Assembly: GCF_009193185.1 (NCBI RefSeq)
Contig: NZ_VUKF01000008.1
Location: 1 to 64,000, forward strand
Direction: 5' to 3'
From: Georgenia thermotolerans
GTDB taxonomy: Bacteria; Actinomycetota; Actinomycetes; Actinomycetales; Actinomycetaceae
Length of the DNA stretch: 64,000 bases
In this document: positions 19,688-62,060 of the stretch, one piece after another
Numbering within the stretch: the stretch's first letter is position 1
Layout: the number at the start of each line of letters is the position of its first letter
Translations under genes and position numbers: made by a program
Notes under the pieces: generated by a model
Databases searched by the model: none
Told to the model about the DNA's origin: nothing
Seen by the model: only the letters and a program-made list of their open reading frames with translations

Positions 19688-21382
19688 ATGGACCTCGCCT
19701 TTCTCGGGCGCGTCTCCACCGAGGACGCGCAGGACCCCGAGGCATCCCGAATGTGGCAGCTCGCGCGCGCCCGCGACCTCGTAGGGCCGCTCGGGCACCG
19801 CATCGTGGTCGAGTTCTTCGACGTCGGGCAGTCCCGGTCGCTGCCGTGGAAGCGGCGCCCGGAGGCGAGTGCGCTGCTGGAGGAGATCAAGCGGCCTGAC
19901 CGCCGGTTCGACGGCATCGTGATCGGGGAGCCGCAGCGAGCCTTCTACGGTCACCAGTTCGCGATGACCTTCCCCGTGCTCACGTACTACGGCTGTGCGC
20001 TGTTCGTGCCGGAGGTCGGCGGTCGGGTGGATCCCGATTCCGAGGCGCACGAGATCATGATGGGCCTGTTTGGCGGCATGTCGAAGGGGGAGCGGTCGCG
20101 GATCCAGAAGCGCACTCGCACCGCGATGCACGAGCTGGCGGCCCGCACCGACCGTCGGCTTGGCGGGCGGCCGCCGTACGGCTACATGCTCGCCGACGCC
20201 GGGCCGCACCCCAACCCCTCGCGGGCTGCCACTGGTCAACGGCGCCACAAGCTCGTCCCGGATCCCGTCACCGCGCCGGTCGTCGTGAAGATCTTCGAGT
20301 GGGGCGCCGCTGGCGATGGCCTGCGCGCGATCGCACAACGGCTCACGGACCAGGGAGCGCCCTCGCCGTCGGCGCACGACCGGCGGCGCAACCCGCACCG
20401 TGATCCGCGTGGCTGGTCCCATGCGACCGTCCGCACGATCCTGACCAATCCCGTCTACACGGGGTACAGGTACTGGGGGAAGCAGGAGAAGTTCGAGCAG
20501 CTCCTCGATGTCGAGGACGTCGCGGCCGGGAACGTCACCCGCATGCGCTGGCGCGACCGGTCCGAGTGGATCCGGCCCGCCGGGCCGACCCACGAAGCGA
20601 TCATCGACCCCGTCCTGTGGGAGACCGTCGCCGGTCGCTTCCAGGCCGCGGCCCGCCAGGGCGCGAGTCCCGGAAGCGGCCGCTACGTCCCCCGGCGACC
20701 GCGCAACGCCCAGCGCATCTACCCGCTGGCAGGCCGCGTCGTTTGCGCGTACTGCGACCATCGGCTGTCAGGAAACTTCAACAGGTCGACGGCGAAGGAC
20801 CGGACCGACGGCCGCGTGCTGTACCGCTGCGAGTTCGACAAACGATTCGCGGTGCCAGCCGACCTCGCGGACCACCCGCCGGTCACGCTGCGGCAGGATG
20901 CGATCTTCGCGGCACTGGACGCGGACCTCGCCGAGGTGTTCTCGGACCCGCGCGCGCTGGCAGCGGCCCTCCTCGCCGAGGACCGCACGTCCGCCGAGCA
21001 GCGATCGCTGCACGAGCGCCGTCGTCGCCTGCAGGAGGAGATCGAGAACCTCGTTGGTTTCATCGCCAAGGGAACAGCCTCCGACGCCATCGCCGCCGCC
21101 CTGGCCGCCAAGGAGGCCGAGCTCGCGCAGACCAAGCAGCGCCTCACCGAGATCGCCAGACCCCGCAAGAAGGTCGACCCTGGCGAGATCGTCGCCGCGC
21201 TCGAGCTGATCGGCGGCGCCGTCGGGGCCCTGGCCCAGGCCACGGACGCGGAGCGCCGCGACCTCTACAACGCTCTCGACCTGCGCATCCGCTACGACGC
21301 AACGAAAAAGCGGGCTCACTACACAGTGAGCCCGCTCCTATCCGCCACGCGTGTGGATAGTCGTGTCCGGAGGGGGACTTGA
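19688..21382 (+). CDS. Large serine recombinase (site-specific integrase)
   Basis: 564 residues. The N-terminal resolvase domain has catalytic Ser10 in FLGRVSTED and conserved GEPQRAFYGHQF and GGMSKGERSRI. The recombinase domain (about 160-300) has GGRPPYGYMLADAG and VRTILTNPVYTGY. A zinc-ribbon segment follows (VCAYCDHRLSG ... YRCEFD) and a coiled-coil (about 410-500). It joins attP and attB by concerted double-strand breaks through a serine intermediate. The last codons lie inside the tRNA-Leu gene on the opposite strand (19 bp overlap), as expected for an integrase whose attachment site is the tRNA 3' end. Confidence 0.93.
   Translation: MDLAFLGRVSTEDAQDPEASRMWQLARARDLVGPLGHRIVVEFFDVGQSRSLPWKRRPEASALLEEIKRPDRRFDGIVIGEPQRAFYGHQFAMTFPVLTYYGCALFVPEVGGRVDPDSEAHEIMMGLFGGMSKGERSRIQKRTRTAMHELAARTDRRLGGRPPYGYMLADAGPHPNPSRAATGQRRHKLVPDPVTAPVVVKIFEWGAAGDGLRAIAQRLTDQGAPSPSAHDRRRNPHRDPRGWSHATVRTILTNPVYTGYRYWGKQEKFEQLLDVEDVAAGNVTRMRWRDRSEWIRPAGPTHEAIIDPVLWETVAGRFQAAARQGASPGSGRYVPRRPRNAQRIYPLAGRVVCAYCDHRLSGNFNRSTAKDRTDGRVLYRCEFDKRFAVPADLADHPPVTLRQDAIFAALDADLAEVFSDPRALAAALLAEDRTSAEQRSLHERRRRLQEEIENLVGFIAKGTASDAIAAALAAKEAELAQTKQRLTEIARPRKKVDPGEIVAALELIGGAVGALAQATDAERRDLYNALDLRIRYDATKKRAHYTVSPLLSATRVDSRVRRGT
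21363..21372. other. Putative attachment core at the tRNA end
   Basis: GTGTCCGGAG, shared with 9211-9220. It covers the acceptor-stem 3' strand of tRNA-Leu, so integration restores the gene. Confidence 0.4.
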
Positions 21383-21449
21383 ACCCCCACGCCCGATAAA
21401 GGGCACTAGCACCTCAAGCTAGCGCGTCTGCCTATTCCGCCACCCGGAC
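21364..21449 (-). tRNA. tRNA-Leu (anticodon GAG)
   Basis: 86 nt with discriminator A and no encoded CCA. The acceptor stem GTCCGGG/TCCGGAC closes, the anticodon arm CTAGC-TTGAGGT-GCTAG has GAG in the loop, a long class II variable arm (TGCCC...GGGCG) is present, and the T-arm is GGGGG-TTCAAGT-CCCCC. The serine recombinase gene overlaps its 3' end. Confidence 0.95.
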
Positions 21450-25284: not shown

Positions 25285-26346
25285 GTGTCGAGCCTGTCCC
25301 TGCCCGTCCTGCTGCTGATCTTCGCCGCGGCCGCCGCGGCGGTGTGGGTCGCCGGCATCCAGCTGCCGAACCAGACCGACGTGCTGGCCACCCGCCTGCA
25401 CCTGGGCGCGGCGCTGGGCGGGCTGATCCTGCTGGCCGTCGCCACCAACCTGCCCGAGATCGCCATCGTCACCAGCGCCGCCCTGTCCGGCAACGTCGGG
25501 GTGGCGGTGGGCAACATCCTCGGCGGCATCGCCATCCAGACCGTCGTGCTGGTGGCGCTGGACGCCTTCGGCGTACGCGGGAGGCAGCCGTTGACCTACC
25601 GCGCCGCGTCGCTGGTCCTGGTGCTCGAGGCGCTGCTCGTGGTGGCCGTCCTCGCGGTGGTCGTCGCCGGCTCCCAGCTCCCGTCGGGCCTGATCGCCTT
25701 CCGCCTCGCTCCCGCGCCGGTCCTCATCCTGATCCTGTGGGTGACGGGCCTGGTGCTGCTGCGGCGGGCCGGAACGGGCCTGCCCTGGCACGAGTCCGGG
25801 CAGGCGCCCGGCGGACAGGAGCGCCCCCGCGGGCACTCTCAGCAGCAGACCGAGCAGGAGGCCCGGGAGAAGGGCACCAGCACCGCCAGGTCGGCGACGA
25901 TCTTCGCCGTCGCGGCCCTGGTGACCCTCGGCGCCGGCGTCGTCCTGGAACGCAGCGGCGACGCGATCGCGAGCGACATCGGCCTGTCCGGGGTGCTCTT
26001 CGGTGCCACCGTCCTGGCCGCCGCCACCTCCCTGCCGGAGCTGTCGACGGGGCTGACGTCCGTGCGCCACGAGGACCAGCTCGCCGTCAGCGACATCTTC
26101 GGCGGCAACGCGTTCCTGCCGGTGCTCTTCCTGCTGGCCACCGTCCTGTCGGGCCAGGTGGTGCTCCCGCAGGCGCAGGCCCCCGACATCTATCTCACCG
26201 CCCTGGCGATCCTCCTGACCCTGGTCTACGCCACCGGGCTGATCTTCCGGCCCACGCGGCAGGTGGCGCGCATGGGCGTCGACTCGCTGGTGGTGCTGGT
26301 CCTCTACGCCGTGGGCGTGGCCGGGCTGTTCGTCGTCGCCGGCTGA
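25285..26346 (+). CDS. Sodium/calcium exchanger (CaCA) family membrane protein
   Basis: 353 residues with about ten transmembrane helices in two halves of five. Each half carries an alpha repeat: ATNLPEIAIVTSAALSGN with VGNILGGIA in the first, AATSLPELSTGLTSVRHED with SDIFGGNAF in the second, including the acidic residues that bind the cation. A basic, Gln-rich cytosolic loop of about 40 residues separates the halves. It likely exchanges Ca2+ (or K+) for Na+ or H+. The start is GTG 25285. It is not closely linked to neighbours. Confidence 0.88.
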   Translation: MSSLSLPVLLLIFAAAAAAVWVAGIQLPNQTDVLATRLHLGAALGGLILLAVATNLPEIAIVTSAALSGNVGVAVGNILGGIAIQTVVLVALDAFGVRGRQPLTYRAASLVLVLEALLVVAVLAVVVAGSQLPSGLIAFRLAPAPVLILILWVTGLVLLRRAGTGLPWHESGQAPGGQERPRGHSQQQTEQEAREKGTSTARSATIFAVAALVTLGAGVVLERSGDAIASDIGLSGVLFGATVLAAATSLPELSTGLTSVRHEDQLAVSDIFGGNAFLPVLFLLATVLSGQVVLPQAQAPDIYLTALAILLTLVYATGLIFRPTRQVARMGVDSLVVLVLYAVGVAGLFVVAG

Positions 26347-26347
26347 C

Positions 26348-26446
26348 GTCGCCCACGGCCGCGTGACGGAGCTGCGCCGTCGCCCGCCCCGTCGCCCACG
26401 GCCGCGCCGTCGGCCGGCGTGCGGGCCCGGGCTGCGCCGTCGGCCC
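26348..26446 (+). repeat. Local GC-rich imperfect repeats
   Basis: GTCGCCCACGGCCGCG occurs at 26348-26363 and 26391-26406, and GCTGCGCCGTCG occurs twice in the same 100 bp. They lie between the exchanger and the NRAMP-like gene. They have no relation to the 19-bp family. Confidence 0.5.
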
Positions 26447-26563
26447 GCGTGCCGACCTCAACGGGCCGTCCCATGATGGAGACGGGTCGGCGACGGCGTG
26501 CCGACCCCCCGGTGCCCGTCCGGGCGCCGCGCCCACGGCGCACCACGTGCCCAGGGGGTTCCC

Positions 26564-27781
26564 ATGGCCCAGCCCGCCGACGCACCCGCCCGCCTCTCCC
26601 GCTCGCACCGCACCGGCCTGCTCGGGGCCATGTTCCTCATGGCCACCAGCGCCATCGGGCCCGGGTTCATCACCCAGACCACCAACTTCACCGTCCAGCT
26701 CGGGGCGGCGTTCGCGTTCGCCATCCTCGCCTCGGTGGTGGTGGACATCTGCGTCCAGCTCAACGTCTGGCGGGTCATCGGGATCACCGGCCTGCGCGCG
26801 AACGAGCTCGGCAACCGGGTGCTGCCCGGGGTGGGGGTGGTCCTCGCCGTCCTCGTCTTCGCCGGCGGGCTGGTCTTCAACATCGGCAACACCGCCGGTG
26901 GCGGCCTCGGCATCAACGCCATGACGGGGCTGAACACCACCGCCGGCGGGGTGATCACGGCCGCGATCGCGATCGCGGTGTTCCTCAGCCGCCGCGCCGG
27001 CATCGCCATGGACCGGATCGTCGTGGTCCTCGGGGCGCTGATGATCCTGCTGACGCTCTATGTCGCCATCGAGTCCGGGCCCCCGGTCGGGCAGGCGCTG
27101 AAGAACATGGTCGCCCCGGACCAGGTGAACTTCTTCGTCATCACCACCCTCATCGGCGGCACCGTGGGCGGGTACATCACCTACGCGGGCGCCCACCGGA
27201 TGATCGACACCGGCGTCCACGGCCCGGACAGCGTCAGGTACATCAGCCGCGGCTCGATCGCGGGCGTGATCGTCACCGGCGTCATGCGCTTCCTGCTCTT
27301 CCTGGCGATCTTCGGCGTCGTGGCCGGCGGGGCCAAGCTGGTGGGGGAGAACCTCGCGGCGCAGGCGTTCGGCGTCGCGGCCGGCGAGCTCGGCATGCGC
27401 CTGTTCGGGGTGATCCTGTGGGCCGCCTCGATCACCTCGGTCATCGGCGCGGCGTACACCTCCATCACCTTCGTCACGAAGCCCACCGCCAGCCACCGCA
27501 CCCGCAGCCTGCTCACGTGCCTGTTCATCGCCGTCAGCGCCATCGTGTTCGTCCTCGTGGGGCAGGCCCCCTCGGCGCTGCTCATCTTCGCCGGCGCCTT
27601 CAACGGGCTGATCCTGCCCATCGGCTTCGCCGTCATCCTGTGGGTGGCGTGGCGACGCCGGGACCTGCTGCACGGGTACCGCTACCCGCGCTGGCTGCTG
27701 GTCCTCGGGGTGCTCGCCTGGCTGCTCACCCTGTACTTCGGCTACAACTCCTTCGCCGGCATCTCGGCCCTGTGGACGTGA
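26564..27781 (+). CDS. NRAMP-like metal/solute transporter (YcsG type)
   Basis: 405 residues with about eleven transmembrane helices. NRAMP-fold signs are [12 protein letters not shown] in the first helix, in place of the canonical DPGN motif, so the substrate may differ from Mn2+ and Fe2+. ATG 26564 follows AGGGGG. The reading frame overlaps the next gene (GTGA at 27778-27781). In Bacillus the same pair ycsG-ycsI sits beside the kipI-kipA (pxpB-pxpC) and ycsF (pxpA) genes, and the same set recurs here on the other strand from 31392. Uptake of 5-oxoproline or a related acid is therefore plausible but unproven. Confidence 0.82.
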
Positions 27782-27786
27782 TCGCG

Positions 27787-28599
27787 ATGACCTCCTCGAC
27801 CCTCGCCCCCGGCCTGGCCGACGCCGCCCGCCTCACCCCGGCCGAGGCCCGGTCCCGCTTCCGCGCCGGCCTCGTGACCCCCACCGCCGGGTGGTCGCGC
27901 GGCTACGCCCAGGCCAACCTCATCGCCGTGCCACGGGAGTACGCCTTCGACATGCTGCTCTTCGCCCAGCGCAACCCCAAGCCCTGCCCGGTGCTCGGGG
28001 TCCTCGACGCCGGCGAGGTCGCCGGGCCGCTGCTCGCCGGCGGCGACGTCCGCACCGACCTGCCCCTGTACACCGTCTACGCCGACGGCGAGAAGGTCAC
28101 CGACACCCCGGACGTGCGCGAGCACTGGCGCGACGACCTGGTGGCCTTCCTCGTCGGGTGCAGCTTCACGTTCGAGACCGCGCTGCAGGACGCCGGCATC
28201 CGCATCGCCCACATCGCGCAGGGCACCAACGTGCCGATGTACCGCACCACCCGCCGCTGCGCGAGCGCCGGGGCGCTGTCCGGACCGCTGGTGGTCTCCA
28301 TGCGTCCCATCCCCGCCGGCCAGGTGGCCGACGCCGTGCGCATCACCTCCCGCTACCCGGCCGTGCACGGCGCCCCGGTGCACGTGGGCGACCCGGGGGC
28401 GCTGGGCATCCGCGACCTCGACGCGCCCGACTTCGGCGACCCGGTGGCGATCGGCCCGGGAGAGCTGCCGGTGTTCTGGGCGTGCGGGGTCACCCCGCAG
28501 GCCGCGGTCATGGAGTCCCGGCCGCCGCTGGCGATCGGGCACGCGCCGGGCCACATGCTCGTCACCGACGTCAAGGACGCGGCCTACCAGGTGCCGTGA
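27787..28599 (+). CDS. Putative hydro-lyase, YcsI / DUF1445 family
   Basis: 270 residues. Typical family stretches are [53 protein letters not shown] and the C-terminal [12 protein letters not shown] / ITHAPGHM-like segment (here [12 protein letters not shown]). Relatives are called D-glutamate cyclase or hydro-lyase; D-glutamate cyclase yields 5-oxo-D-proline, which fits the 5-oxoprolinase genes nearby. A GTG at 27778 overlapping the transporter stop is an alternative start. It overlaps the next gene by 4 bp. Confidence 0.83.
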
Positions 28600-31391: not shown

Positions 31392-33017
31392 TCAGGACGA
31401 CGGGGCGAGGACGAACCGCAGGGAGTCGCCGGGCCGCACCTGGGCGAGCCGGTCGAGGTCGGCGGTGCGGACGACGGCGATGACGGGGTAGCCGCCGGAG
31501 GTGGGGTGGTCGGCGAGGAACACCACCGGCAGGCCCGAGGCCGGCACCTGCACGGCGCCGGCGACGGTGCCCTCGCTGGGCAGCTCCTCGGTGCGGGTGC
31601 GCGCCAGCGGCTCGCCGTCCAGGCGCAGCCCGACCCGGTTGGACCGGTCGGTCACCGCCCAGTCCTGCCGGCACAGCGACGCCAGCGCGTCGGCGGCGAA
31701 CCAGCCTTCGCGGGGGCCGGGGACGACGGCGACCGTGACCGGCCCGTCGGCCCACGCCGGGGCGGGGTCCGGCGCCGCGACGACGGCGCCCGGTCGCGGC
31801 GGCCGGACCGGCAGGACGGCACCGGCCTCGAGCGGGGCGGGGCCCAGCCCGGACATCGTGTCGGTCGCGCGGCTGCCCAGGACCGGCGCGAGGTCCAGCC
31901 CGCCGCGCACCGCGACGTAGGAGCGCAGCCCGGCGCGGGGTGGGCCGAGGGCGAGGACCTCCCCGTCGCGCAGCGCGAACGGGGCGTCGGTGGGCGGGCG
32001 GCGCACGCCGCCGTCACCCTCGACGGTCAGCGCCGCGGGGGCCCCGGTCACGGCGAGCACCTGGTCGCCGTCGGCGCGCAGCCGCAGCCCGCTCGGCACC
32101 GTCTCGACCACCGCCGCGTCGCGCGGGTTGCCGACGAGGCGGTTGGCCCGCACGGCGGCGCCGCGGTCCACCGCCCCGGACGGGCACACGCCCAGGTCGA
32201 GGTAGCCCGGGCGGCCCAGGTCCTCCACCAGGCTCTGCAGCCCCGGCGCCTCGACGACGAGGGCCCCACCCCGCCCCGGTGGCGAGACGTCAACTCCGTC
32301 ACGAGACGTCATCTCCGGCGTGAGCGACGGGCGCGCCTGCCCGGTGGCGCTGCCGGACGCGGGCTCGGCGGGGTCAACCGCCTCGACCACCTCCCGCACG
32401 GCCCGGTAGCGCACCCGGGCGCCGGGCCGCACGAGCGCGGGCTGAGGGCGCGCGAGGTCCCACATCCGTGCGCCGGTGCGGCCGATGAGCTGCCAGCCGC
32501 CGGGGGACTCGCGCGGGTAGACGGCGGAGAACCCGCCGGCGAGGGCGACGGACCCGGCCGGCACGGCCGTGCGCGGGGTGTCTCGGCGGGGCACGTCCAG
32601 GTCGTGGTTCTCCCCGACGAGGTAGGCGAAGCCCGGCGCGAAGCCACCGAAGGCGGCCGTCCACACCTGCCCGGTGTGGGCGCGCACCACCCCCTCCGGG
32701 CTCAGCCCGGTCAGCTCGGCCACGACGGCGAGGTCCTCGCCGTCGTACACCGTGTCGATCTCGACCAGCGGGCCTTCCCGGGCGTCGCCGGGCTCCGCGG
32801 TCAGCGCGGCGACCTCCCGGGCCAGCGACGCGACCGCGGAGGGCGCCTCGGCCACGACCATGACCGTCCTCGCGGCGGCCAGGACGTCACGCTGGCCGGG
32901 CAGCGGGCGGCGCTGGAGGGTGGCGTGCAGGTCGATGACCTCCTGGAGGTCGTCGCACTCGGCGAGGACCGCCCGGTCCCCGACCGGCCGGACCTGGCGC
33001 CGGGGCGGGCCGGTCAC
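31392..33017 (-). CDS. 5-oxoprolinase subunits PxpB-PxpC fusion (KipI-KipA)
   Basis: 541 residues. Residues 1 to about 235 are PxpB/KipI ([51 protein letters not shown]). Residues about 256-541 are PxpC/KipA ([64 protein letters not shown]). With PxpA they cleave 5-oxoproline to glutamate using ATP. The GTG start overlaps the pxpA stop by 4 bp. The linker (about 236-255) is encoded by two units of the dispersed 19-bp repeat family and contains [14 protein letters not shown]. Confidence 0.9.
32284..32321 (+). repeat. 19-bp repeat family, array A (inside a coding linker)
   Basis: GAGACGTCA begins at 32284 and again at 32303, exactly 19 bp apart. On the coding (minus) strand it reads CGTGACGGAGTTGACGTCTC, almost the same as units of array D. 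It is in frame and has no stop codon. Confidence 0.8.
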
Positions 33018-33856: not shown

Positions 33857-35224
33857 ATGAGTGCCGAGCCCGCCCCCACCGCCTCGTCCGCCACGACCCG
33901 TGCCGAGGGCCCCGGGACCCCGCGCCCGGAGGACGAGGTCGTCGGCATCTGCCAGGACCTCATCCGCATCGACACCTCCAACTACGGCGACGGGTCCGGG
34001 CCGGGGGAGCGGGCGGCGGCCGAGCACGTCATGGGGCTGCTCACCGAGGTGGGCTGGGACCCCGAGCTGGTCGAGTCGGCGCCGGGCCGGGCCAGCGTGC
34101 TGCTGCGCATCCCCGGCACGGACCCGGACCGCGGCGCCCTGGTGGTGCACGGGCACACCGACGTCGTCCCCGCCGAGGCGGCCGACTGGTCGGTCGACCC
34201 CTTCGCCGGGGAGATCCGCGACGGCATGGTGTGGGGCCGCGGCGCCGTGGACATGAAGGACATGGACGCGATGATCCTCGCGCTCGTGCGCGACATGGGG
34301 CGCACGGGGTGGCGTCCGGCGCGCGACCTGGTCGTGGCGTTCCTCGCCGACGAGGAGGCCGGCGGCCACTTCGGCGCCCACTGGCTGGTCGACCACCGCC
34401 CGGAGGTGTTCGACGGCGCCACCGAGGCGATCAGCGAGGTCGGCGGGTACTCGGTGGAGGTCGACGGGCGGCGGGTGTACCTGCTGCAGACGGCGGAGAA
34501 GGGCCTGGCGTGGCTGCGGCTGCTGGCCGAGGGCACGGCGGGGCACGGCTCGCAGGTCAACGAGGACAACGCGGTGACCCGCCTCGCCGGCGCGATCCAC
34601 CGCATCGGCGCCCACTCCTGGCCGATGCACCTGACCGGGACGGTGCGCCAGCTCCTGACCGGGGTGGCGGAGCTGACCGGCACCACCTTCGACCCCGAGG
34701 ACCCCGAGGGCATCGCGCGGCTGGTCGACGCGCTCGGCCCGGCGAAGAAGTTCGTCGGCGCCACCCTGCGCACCGGCGCCAACCCCACCCAGCTCAACGC
34801 CGGGTACAAGGCGAACGTCATCCCCGGCGCCGCGACGGGCGCCGTCGACCTGCGGCCGGTGCCGGGGGAGGAGGACCAGGCCCGGGCGATGATCGCGGAG
34901 CTGGCCGGGCCGGGCGTGCGGATCGAGGCCCTGCACGAGGACGCCGGGATCGAGGCACCGTTCGAGGGGCACCTCGTCGACGCGATGGTCGCCGCCATCG
35001 ACGCGTTCGACCCCGGGGCGCAGGTGCTGCCCTACATGCTCTCGGCGGGAACGGACAACAAGGCGCTGGGCCGGCTGGGCATCACCGGCTACGGCTTCGT
35101 CCCGCTGCGCCTCCCGGCGGACATGGACTTCCCGGGGATGTTCCACGGCGTCGACGAGCGGGTGCCGGTCGACGCGCTGCAGTTCGGCACGCGGGTGCTC
35201 GAGCGGCTGCTGCGTACCTGCTGA
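33857..35224 (+). CDS. M20-family zinc peptidase/deacylase
   Basis: 455 residues. Metal-site motifs of the DapE/ArgE/CPG2 group: [36 protein letters not shown] with the catalytic Glu pair, and a late [11 protein letters not shown] histidine. The lid domain in the middle has [13 protein letters not shown]. It hydrolyses an amide bond of a small peptide or N-acyl amino acid; the substrate is unknown. A leaderless start is likely, with TAGCCT 6 bp before the ATG. A tandem repeat array begins 12 bp after its stop. Confidence 0.9.
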
Positions 35225-35235
35225 CCCCGTTTGGA

Positions 35236-35349
35236 GCGCGAGACGTCAAGTGGTGCGCGAGGTGTCAAGTGGTGCGCGAGACGTCAAGTGGTGCGCGAGG
35301 TGTCAAGTGGTGCGCGAGAAGTCAAGTTCTGCGCGAGGTGTCGCGCGCG
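35236..35349 (+). repeat. 19-bp repeat family, array B1 (six units)
   Basis: Six contiguous 19-bp units, starting at 35236, 35255, 35274, 35293, 35312 and 35331. Odd units read GCGCGAGACGTCAAGTGGT or close to it; even units have GAGGTGTC in place of GAGACGTC. The last unit is decayed. There are no spacers between units. Confidence 0.9.
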
Positions 35350-35424
35350 GATGGAGCCGGACCGGCGCGGAGACCGCCGCGGGCGTGGCCCCGTCCTGCT
35401 CGCGGACGGGGGCACGCCGGTGCT

Positions 35425-35481
35425 CAAGTTGACGCCTCGTGCTCAAGTTGACGTCTCACGCACAACTTGACGTCTCGCCGC
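35425..35481 (-). repeat. 19-bp repeat family, array B2 (three units, opposite orientation)
   Basis: CAAGTTGACGCCTCGTGCT, CAAGTTGACGTCTCACGCA and CAACTTGACGTCTCGCCGC follow each other without gaps. They are inverted with respect to B1, 75 bp away, so the two arrays can pair into a large cruciform or hairpin. They end just past the stop of the convergent DUF5703 gene's 3' side. Confidence 0.9.
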
Positions 35482-35493
35482 ACGAGGAAGGGG

Positions 35494-35733
35494 TCAGAGG
35501 GTGCTGGCCACCTGCATCGCCTTGCGCCGCAGCCAGACCTTCCGGGCCCCGCCCACGTAGACGCGCGTGCGCGCCAGCTCCCACCGGCCGTACTCGGCCT
35601 CGTCGGTGAGCAGCCGGCGCACGTCGCCGCGGTCCACCGACGCCGGGAGGGTGACGGTGCGGTACTCGTAGTACGTCGCGTTGCGGTCTCCCCGACGCGA
35701 CGCGAACGCGTGGTTCATGCTCGGCATCCCCAT
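35494..35733 (-). CDS. DUF5703-family small protein
   Basis: 79 residues. TYYEYRTVTLPASVDRGDVR, LLTDEAEYGRWELARTRVY and RKVWLRRKAMQV follow the pattern of a short actinobacterial family of unknown function. ATG 35733 is behind GGAGGGAGC. Its 3' end faces the repeat arrays B1/B2, so those lie between two convergent genes. Confidence 0.78.
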   Translation of the reverse strand: MGMPSMNHAFASRRGDRNATYYEYRTVTLPASVDRGDVRRLLTDEAEYGRWELARTRVYVGGARKVWLRRKAMQVASTL

Positions 35734-52091: not shown

Positions 52092-52148
52092 GTGAGACGT
52101 CAAGTTGGGCGTGAGGCGTCAAGTTGGGCATGAGGCCTCACGGCCGGC
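52092..52148 (+). repeat. 19-bp repeat family, array C (three units)
   Basis: GTGAGACGTCAAGTTGGGC (52092), GTGAGGCGTCAAGTTGGGC (52111) and a decayed third unit (52130). It begins two bases after the FKBP stop codon. Confidence 0.88.
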
Positions 52149-55313: not shown

Positions 55314-55438
55314 CGGGACCGCACGCGGCAGATGTGACGTCCCGCGCGGGGAGTGACGCCTCGTGACCGAGTTGACGTCTCGCGCCGGGAGTGACGCCTC
55401 GTGACCGAGTTGACGTCTCGCGACGAAGTTGACGTCTC
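55291..55438 (-). repeat. 19-bp repeat family, array D (seven units, overlapping two genes)
   Basis: One unit at 55291-55309 (GTGATGGCGTCGACGTCTC), a 15-bp irregular stretch, then six contiguous units at 55325, 55344, 55363, 55382, 55401 and 55420. GTGACCGAGTTGACGTCTC occurs identically at 55363 and 55401. It covers the end of the upstream gene and the start of the ABC transporter gene. Confidence 0.9.
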
Positions 55439-61311: not shown

Positions 61312-62060
61312 CCTCGGCCGACGCCGGGGCGGGGCGCGCGACCGGGACGCCGGGGCGGGGCACCCGCCGTGCGGTGGTGCTGGCCGCCCTGGTGCTCGCG
61401 GTGCTGCTCCTGGCGCTGGGCGGTCTGCCCTGGGTGCGCGGGGAGGTGGCCACGGTCATCGACGTGCGCCCGGTGAGCGTGACCGGGGCGGGCGCCACCC
61501 CGGCGCTCACCGCCGCCGCGCTGGTGGTGGGGGCAGCCGCGCTGACCGTGGCGATCGGGCGCCGGGTGGCGGTCGCCGTCGGCGGGGTGGTGCTGATCGG
61601 CGCCGCGGCGCTGGTCGCGGCCGCGGTGGCCGGCTTCCTCCAGGACCCGACGGCGCCCGCCCTCGCCGAGGCGGCGCAGGTCAGCGGCGTGCCGCAGCTG
61701 TCCGGCGCGGCCCACGTCACCCCCTGGCCCTGGGTGGCGCTCGTGGTGGCCGCCGCCCTGGCGGTGCTGGGCGTGCTCACGCTCGTGCGCGGGCGGGCCT
61801 GGCAGAGCGGGGGACGCCGCTTCGAGCGGACGACGGCGCCCGGGACCGTTGCCCCGAGCGCCGCCCCGAACGCCGCCCGGGACGCGCGCACCCGGGCCAT
61901 GGACGACTGGGACGCCCTGGGCCGCGGTGAGGACCCCTCCGGGCAAGACGACGTCTCCTCCGGCCCCGATGCCGCCTCCTCCGGCGACGGAGACGGGCCC
62001 TCCGGCCCCGAGGCCGCTCCCTCCGGCGAGGGCGACGCCGAGCCGCCGGCGCCTCGCTGA
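61308..62060 (+). CDS. Trp-region conserved membrane protein (TIGR02234-like)
   Basis: 250 residues, four transmembrane helices (about 20-45, 65-85, 90-115, 140-165) and a long acidic Ser/Gly/Asp-rich cytosolic tail. Between helices 1 and 2 is LPWVRGEVATVIDVRPVSVTG, the family hallmark. It is found beside trp genes in many actinobacteria, function unknown. The GTG overlaps the trpE stop. Confidence 0.85.
   Translation: MTSADAGAGRATGTPGRGTRRAVVLAALVLAVLLLALGGLPWVRGEVATVIDVRPVSVTGAGATPALTAAALVVGAAALTVAIGRRVAVAVGGVVLIGAAALVAAAVAGFLQDPTAPALAEAAQVSGVPQLSGAAHVTPWPWVALVVAAALAVLGVLTLVRGRAWQSGGRRFERTTAPGTVAPSAAPNAARDARTRAMDDWDALGRGEDPSGQDDVSSGPDAASSGDGDGPSGPEAAPSGEGDAEPPAPR

Follow-up and report, generated by a model that had tools for sequence, protein, structure and literature searches.

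A gap between two convergent genes in Georgenia thermotolerans holds two arrays of a 19-bp tandem repeat that point towards each other, which raises the question of whether such arrays are a peculiarity of this one locus or belong to a wider family and, in the latter case, what they do at the ends of genes. The locus was analyzed within its surrounding 64,000-nt stretch (hereafter, the window), within the genome to which the window belongs (G000), and in comparison with eight other Georgenia genomes (G001 to G008). Among the latter is that of Georgenia ruanii (G003), the nearest named relative of the window genome, whose M20 protein is 97% identical. The reading we favor, tentatively and with somewhat less than even confidence, is that of a genus-restricted, oriented 3'-end element that probably acts as a hairpin-poor termination or insulation array bound by a putative factor.

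The opposed arrays and related arrays in the window

The intergenic gap (35225-35493) extends from the stop of the M20 peptidase gene (35224, + strand) to the stop of the DUF5703 gene (35494, - strand). Direct reading and Tandem Repeats Finder both confirmed what an earlier note on this DNA had described, namely six units on the + strand and three on the - strand with a strict 19-bp period, and the convergent arrangement of the flanking genes was likewise upheld (Table 1). The + cores start at 35240, 35259, 35278, 35297, 35316 and 35335 and read, in order, GAGACGTC, GAGGTGTC, GAGACGTC, GAGGTGTC, GAGAAGTC and GAGGTGTC; the reported alternation of AC and GT units is true of the first four. With Tandem Repeats Finder, the first array (35232-35342) had a period of 19, with 38 fitting as well, and the second (35420-35477) was likewise a 19-bp array; the proposed duplication of a 38-bp dimer stands. 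The two arrays are ~70-90 bp apart, the figure being set by where the degenerate sixth unit is ended. Their arms are able to pair as RNA, as had been suggested (-159.4 kcal/mol versus a shuffle mean of -123.9, z -6.7), and the hairpin predicted between them may be usable as a bidirectional terminator stem. The G000 unit (35240-35342) presumably has the 10-mer GACGTCAAGT in common with a conserved stretch of 16S rRNA, possibly by chance, the G007 dialect being without it.

Table 1. Coordinates of the opposed arrays, their flanking genes and the other arrays of the window.
Feature	Position	Strand	Basis and remarks
Two-unit array in linker of fused carboxyltransferase gene (CT_C_D + CT_A_B)	32284..32310	+	Antisense to gene
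M20 peptidase gene	33857..35224	+	Pfam M20, ORF; stop TGA 35222-35224, 5' of + array
Leader, stop codon to first core	35225..35239	+	Sequence CCCCG...; weak C-tract here
Sense array, six 19-bp units	35238..35351 (cores 35240-35342)	+	Sequence, Tandem Repeats Finder; last two units degenerate
Hairpin between arrays	35382..35418		RNA fold; minimum ~-37.6 kcal/mol in 50-nt window
Opposed array, three 19-bp units	35420..35478 (cores 35431-35476)	-	Sequence, Tandem Repeats Finder; sense for - strand gene
Leader, - gene stop to its array	35479..35493	-	Sequence CCCCTTCC... on - strand
Convergent gene, DUF5703 protein	35494..35733	-	Pfam DUF5703
Three-unit array	52094..52139	+	Sense, 4 nt past stop of FKBP-type gene
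Six-unit array between two + genes	55336..55438	-	Antisense; C-rich tract on own 5' side

The expectation that related arrays occur elsewhere in the window was borne out at three further loci, giving a total of five arrays at four loci, and 16 of the 18 core matches of the window fall in tandem arrays. Across 448 kb, consisting of the window and three contigs picked for holding matches, there were 20 arrays versus a total of 2 in 20 Markov-1 resamplings of the same length. The array at 32284-32310 leaves the reading frame of its host gene unbroken; this fused gene we take to encode 5-oxoprolinase-type subunits. Further arrays lie within called genes at L230:3038 and L246:2976-3448. Separately, Tandem Repeats Finder identified a 42-bp tandem repeat of ~2 copies at 61934-62037, which is perhaps coding low-complexity sequence.

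Unit structure and species dialects

Arrays consist of two to seven head-to-tail 19-bp units. Across 250 units of G000, (C/T)GAG-R-Y-GTCA is conserved and is followed by a looser A-S-T, the consensus of 40 units of G007 is GAGATGTCATCTTCTCC, and that of 29 units of G002 is GAG-A-N-GTCA...CTCC; these are species dialects built round a common GAG..GTCA core. Successive cores lying within 80 bp of each other are spaced at exactly 19 bp in 144 of 156 cases in the stretches of G000 that were read, in 20 of 21 in G007 and in 9 of 10 in G002. The view that a two-fold symmetric GACGTC forms the core, and could serve as the site of a dimeric protein, did not survive this comparison: GACGTC is present in only two of the six + units at the M20 locus, another species mostly has GATGTC, the R and Y positions vary within GAG-R-Y-GTCA, and the dyad that the G007 dialect approaches is a different one, of 13 bp (GAGATG-T-CATCTC), and is largely lost in G000.

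Arrays have a sharp start and a more degenerate end. In G000, the match to the consensus is 0.86 for the first unit, 0.81 for middle units and 0.73 for the last, and core scores drop from first to last unit in this genome and likewise, less evenly and over fewer arrays, in G007 and G002. Adjacent units are also more alike (0.81) than units from different arrays (0.74), and this likeness of neighbors, together with the 38-bp periods, points to local duplication.

Distribution in Georgenia and beyond

An exact two-unit pattern (two cores 19 bp apart) had 170 matches in G000, with 0 for a reversed-pattern control, and the counts in its relatives were 100 in G007, 22 in G002, 5 in G001, 3 in G. 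ruanii and 0 in G004, G005, G006 and G008. The earlier note had proposed a dispersed family, to be given up if the genome held only a few loci; with relatives searched and 170 exact matches in G000, that proposal holds. When two mismatches were allowed, there were 248 matches in G000, 237 in G007, 148 in G002, 20 in G001, 16 in G. ruanii, 7 in G004, 1 each in G008 and G006 and 0 in G005, with 0 or 1 in the controls; on inspection by eye, chance or an unrelated repeat seems to account for those in G004, G006 and G008. G004 also has a cluster of GTCGAGACGGCA-like repeats (G004:C6:161183-161325) that is probably unrelated to the 19-bp family. Very roughly, we estimate the total number of arrays in G000 at ~80-110, by extrapolation from ~47 array loci counted by eye among 100 junctions listed.

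Outside Georgenia, the exact pattern was found in 0 of 50 genomes of the same family and order and in 0 of 395 genomes from an even draw of the phylum, a set that overlaps the 50 and in which the reversed control had 1 match, in one genome. Among the sampled genomes, the 19-bp family was thus seen only in Georgenia, and within the genus it is patchy and fast-evolving among close species, a point missed previously. As four of the nine species are without exact-pattern arrays, its function cannot be essential to the genus.

This patchiness (170 exact matches in G000 versus 3 in G. ruanii, or 248 versus 16 with two mismatches) favors what we consider the main rival to a termination array: a selfish or neutral dispersed repeat that spreads by an unspecified mechanism, is lengthened by slippage or unequal recombination, and survives where it is least harmful. 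The 38-bp duplications and the likeness of adjacent units described above fit such a repeat as well. To account for the placement of the arrays, its insertion or survival would have to favor the sense side of stop codons, so that it persists chiefly after stop codons and between convergent genes, and we regard this as possible, at appreciable but clearly minor probability.

The claim that the unit matches no described family was also sustained. Rfam 15 yielded no repeat match above the gathering score (the window returned only a tRNA, at 21364-21449), no description of the repeat was found among the papers listed in a literature search judged mainly from titles, and there was no match among 72,556 plasmids in a search with a low-complexity filter, on which basis a plasmid origin was rejected. 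In IMG/VR, five stretches (GC 0.30-0.58) had one exact two-unit match each; because these matches are single, have neighbors unlike the 19-bp family and in three cases lie in near-copies of one phage sequence, they were taken as chance and a phage origin was rejected.

Position and orientation relative to genes

To relate arrays to genes, 141 arrays were assembled from three species: 69 from G000, 45 from G007 and 27 from G002. For G000, the sources were four longer stretches (the window, C39, C11 and C20, the latter three picked for holding matches) and 40 regions centered on exact matches listed, so that only some of the 170 matches were visited, and those of G007 and G002 were likewise taken from stretches chosen around matches. 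Genes were called by our own codon-usage script, in which starts are rough and stops are sounder. Arrays with a negative stop distance (the gene call overlapping the array) were excluded from the folding, ortholog gene-end and placement tests, those >60 nt from the stop from the folding-profile and length-matched hairpin tests, and those >90 nt from the hairpin count.

There were 75 arrays in codirectional gaps, 55 in convergent gaps, 4 in divergent gaps, 5 inside genes and 2 at the ends of stretches. In codirectional gaps, 51 arrays are sense and 24 antisense (p 0.002); the ratio is 29:10 in G000 and 18:7 in G007, and the bias is absent in G002 (4:7). In convergent gaps, 46 of 55 arrays face the nearer stop (p 4e-7). 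All 15 cases of opposed neighboring arrays within 350 bp of each other are convergent, and three further neighboring pairs point in the same direction.

The distance from the stop codon was distinctive. For codirectional sense arrays with usable distances (27, 18 and 3 in G000, G007 and G002, respectively), the medians were 17, 24 and 23 nt versus 63, 110 and 162 nt when arrays were placed at random in the same gaps, but for antisense arrays (9, 6 and 7) the distance to the stop was indistinguishable from random placement in all three species. Anchoring extends to arrays in convergent gaps (medians of 15.5, 21.5 and 22 nt versus 48, 47 and 79 nt at random), and of the 48 G000 arrays that are sense or face the nearer stop, 40 begin 4-37 nt past it. 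Sense arrays are thus anchored to stop codons, which the earlier note had missed, and the contrast between pinned sense and unpinned antisense arrays is the strongest sign that something at the stop codon is important, be it for function or for the arrival of the repeat. A selfish repeat is in keeping with the toleration of some arrays inside genes; neutral tolerance, however, predicts neither sense arrays pinned 17-24 nt from the stop with antisense arrays at random nor a sense bias in two of three species.

Position also bears on the idea that the arrays are operators of a dimeric protein that serve regulation or chromosome organization and are not tied to transcript ends. Strict spacing and the near-dyad of the G007 dialect would suit such operators, but the dyad is largely lost in G000, and divergent gaps, where promoters lie, are avoided, with 2 of 63 intergenic arrays of G000 in gaps that make up 28% of intergenic bases. 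We consider operators improbable.

A C-rich tract 5' of the arrays

A further feature that had been missed is a C-rich, G-poor tract of ~15-20 nt that often lies directly 5' of the first unit, as read along the array, and often runs from the stop codon onwards. Base composition over the 15 nt that precede the first unit is C 0.61 and G 0.21 for the sense arrays of G000 (n=48) and C 0.58 and G 0.20 for its other arrays, the ones in genes included (n=19). The tract was also present in both array classes of G002 (C 0.62 and 0.60) and less evident before the other arrays of G007 (C 0.45, G 0.21, n=10). Based on a fixed criterion, it precedes 40 of 69 arrays in G000, 24 of 45 in G007 and 20 of 27 in G002; for comparison, in G000 it was present in 538 of 13580 intergenic 18-mers drawn at random and at 15 of 169 gene ends without arrays. 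CCC directly follows the stop at 25 of 46 array ends versus 23 of 169 array-free ends, and at 11 orthologous gene ends the criterion held for 1 in G. ruanii versus 6 before G000 arrays. As the tract follows the direction of the array and not that of the gene, it is part of the element or of its target.

Folding of arrays and of array-free gene ends

Just past the stop, array-free gene ends fold strongly, with a mean of -20 to -22 kcal/mol per 45 nt. The arrays fold weakly, with a median best 45-nt window of -15.5 versus -14.7 for their own shuffles (40 arrays), and the stretch 3' of them stays near shuffle, both along the profile (-18.3 falling to -15, shuffles -16 to -17) and in its median minimum fold (-22.2 versus -22.0). 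Hairpins of ≤-30 follow 12 of 46 arrays (6 of 27 in codirectional and 6 of 19 in convergent gaps, the M20 locus among them) versus 100 of 169 array-free ends. This raw contrast has to be qualified, because array gaps leave less room: with gap length stratified, hairpins follow 18 of 41 arrays versus 23.5 expected in G000 (z -2.3) and 8 of 27 versus 12.3 in G007 (z -2.1), and when the array and facing arrays are counted as possible stems, the figure is 20 of 46 versus 100 of 169 (p 0.07), a weak deficit. The strong claim that arrays replace hairpins was therefore rejected, and the contrast counts only as modest support. At 11 orthologous gene ends, folds of ~-33 or lower were present at 8 in G. 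ruanii versus 3 after the G000 array; at one of the other G000 ends, the hairpin precedes the array. Hairpins thus tend to be scarcer where arrays stand, with no strict replacement of one by the other.

The facing arms at the M20 locus suggest a different arrangement, in which facing units form RNA or DNA hairpins, acting in the manner of a REPIN or BIME as bidirectional terminators or recombination sites, and solo arrays are half-elements. A facing reverse unit does occur within 130 nt downstream of 43 of the 141 arrays (both members of a pair being counted) and in the 60 nt upstream of 0 of 141, several short-loop pairs have nearly identical arms (19/19, 18/19 and 17/19), and pairing at the M20 locus is well above shuffle, as given above. 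Yet 98 of 141 arrays are without a facing unit in this range, and arm likeness over all pairs, of 19 positions, is hardly above random in G000 (13.8 versus 13.0) and G002 (12.6 versus 11.9) and below it in G007 (11.6 versus 12.3), so that co-variation of the arms is not general. Given also that no RAYT was found (see below), an inverted doublet as the unit of this family is unlikely.

Turnover between G000 and G. ruanii

Fourteen array regions were aligned to their orthologs in G. ruanii, and in 5 of them G. ruanii has exact cores at the array site on the array strand: two units 19 bp apart where G000 has six (C39:147356), and one core each at C11:47668, C11:77593, C11:92207 and window position 55336. 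A sixth match, near window position 52094, is in coding sequence and was not counted. All of the G. ruanii intergenic DNA read (38,174 bp) held only 5 exact cores, which indicates that such cores are otherwise rare there. In a gene-end mapping of 11 sense arrays, two of these G. ruanii cores lie 16 and 17 nt past the stop; the core at C11:47668 is of a G007-like dialect and is followed, 19 nt on, by a second unit that has decayed, and at two loci the G. ruanii intergenic spacing is only 17 and 19 nt. The retained cores imply that elements of the 19-bp kind predate the split of G000 and G. ruanii. Copy number, array length and dialect nevertheless differ greatly between the two, which may reflect gain in G000 or decay in G. 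ruanii, alternatives that a single outgroup dialect does not appear to separate. Retention in only 5 of 14 regions is consistent with a selfish repeat; against one, the 14 alignments, inspected by eye, showed no evident target-site duplication.

At the M20 gene itself, none of the eight other Georgenia genomes has an array 3' of the gene, G007 having one before it, and a conserved regulatory site of this gene was accordingly rejected. A single GAGATGTCA after the M20 gene of G005 appears, from its reading frame and by eye, to lie where a transposase-like gene begins. At C11:90783-92271, a transposon with inverted ends and cargo was also rejected, as the enclosed gene is present in G. ruanii too, which lacks the first array and has a single core in place of the second. 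Two other differences were noted in G. ruanii: ~2.6 kb of additional DNA, which contains tandem repeats of its own (L190; G003:C14, ~25363-28034), lies 3' of the FKBP-type gene, in the place of the 52094 array of G000, and a local variant array of GACACGTCA cores has the same 19-bp spacing (L220; G003:C15:23888-23953).

Comparison with known systems

REP, BIME and REPIN elements are described as short dispersed extragenic repeats, with inverted pairs in REPINs (PMC1525189, PMC3116915), and as frequent between convergent genes (PMC1525189). The 19-bp family is also dispersed and frequent between convergent genes, a likeness that adds to the case for a selfish repeat, but its arrays are head-to-tail, mostly lack a facing partner, and are stop-anchored in the sense direction. 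Our search for mobility genes covered Y1 transposase and reverse transcriptase domains. The RAYT domain (Y1_Tnp, PF01797) was found in 0 of 9 Georgenia genomes (search control positive in 5 of 14 named genomes), on which ground RAYT mobilization was rejected, and RVT_1 (PF00078) likewise in 0 of 9 (control positive in 3 of 14), which led us to reject spread by a reverse transcriptase and a retroelement or group II intron origin; both results count against a selfish repeat.

DNA uptake sequences (DUS/USS) are often at gene ends. They share with the 19-bp family a restricted motif with species dialects, but are mostly single or paired, and instead of many single copies in coding and non-coding DNA we found units in tandem arrays (16 of 18 window cores), and 5 of the 141 arrays lie within genes. 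CRISPR arrays and plasmid iterons are direct repeats with strict spacing, and the Georgenia arrays resemble them in this and in their sharp start and more degenerate end; they differ in having no unique spacers and in occupying many small dispersed loci. Intrinsic terminators also lie directly past the stop, and some convergent array pairs can form hairpins, but the array itself hardly folds better than shuffle and has no stable hairpin of its own.

Rho-dependent terminators (rut sites) are C-rich, G-poor and unstructured as RNA. Many arrays resemble them in the C-rich, G-poor, weakly folded RNA just past the stop, the C-tract being present at 40 of 69 G000 arrays and not at the other 29, but the element is a specific 19-nt repeat of exact period. 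Since the array strand is not rich in C in G000, the element is not a classic rut site.

Implications

The analysis establishes the position, orientation and period of the arrays, the C-tract at more than half of them, the lack of a hairpin in the array, the restriction to Georgenia in our sample and the turnover between species; a binding factor, a termination role and a mode of spread are inferred. Supporting termination are stop anchoring, sense orientation, avoidance of divergent gaps, the C-tract, the smaller number of hairpins and the strict 19-bp spacing. We propose that, when transcription reads through past the stop codon, the element would be read as RNA, being the first stretch beyond the gene that is free of ribosomes, or as the underlying DNA. 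The C-tract and weakly structured array could then serve as a Rho-type loading region for Rho or a factor like it, and the strictly spaced units would bind a putative sequence-specific DNA- or RNA-binding factor that may stall polymerase or mark and fix the transcript 3' end. Facing arrays would give each convergent gene its own stop. Against termination, arrays are not kept at the same genes, the codirectional arrays of G002 are 4 sense to 7 antisense, some arrays have a strong hairpin after them, 29 of 69 fail the C-tract criterion, and 5 of 141 are inside genes. It is more doubtful that the arrays constitute a new hairpin-independent, orientation-locked class of terminator, in which a C-tract and 19-nt-spaced units are served by a Georgenia-specific factor, the element spreads and its dialect drifts from species to species, and arrays swap with hairpins at the same genes.

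Among dispersed repeats of bacteria, the best known (REP/REPIN) are palindromes linked to a known transposase. The Georgenia repeat is tandem, directional and stop-anchored only in the sense orientation, with no RAYT or reverse transcriptase in nine genomes. If the arrays end transcripts, they would represent, in a high-GC actinobacterium, a type of terminator that escapes hairpin-based annotation; if they do not, they would be a dispersed repeat with an unexplained preference for stop codons. The existence of array-rich (G000, G007) and array-poor (G. ruanii) relatives makes both readings directly testable.
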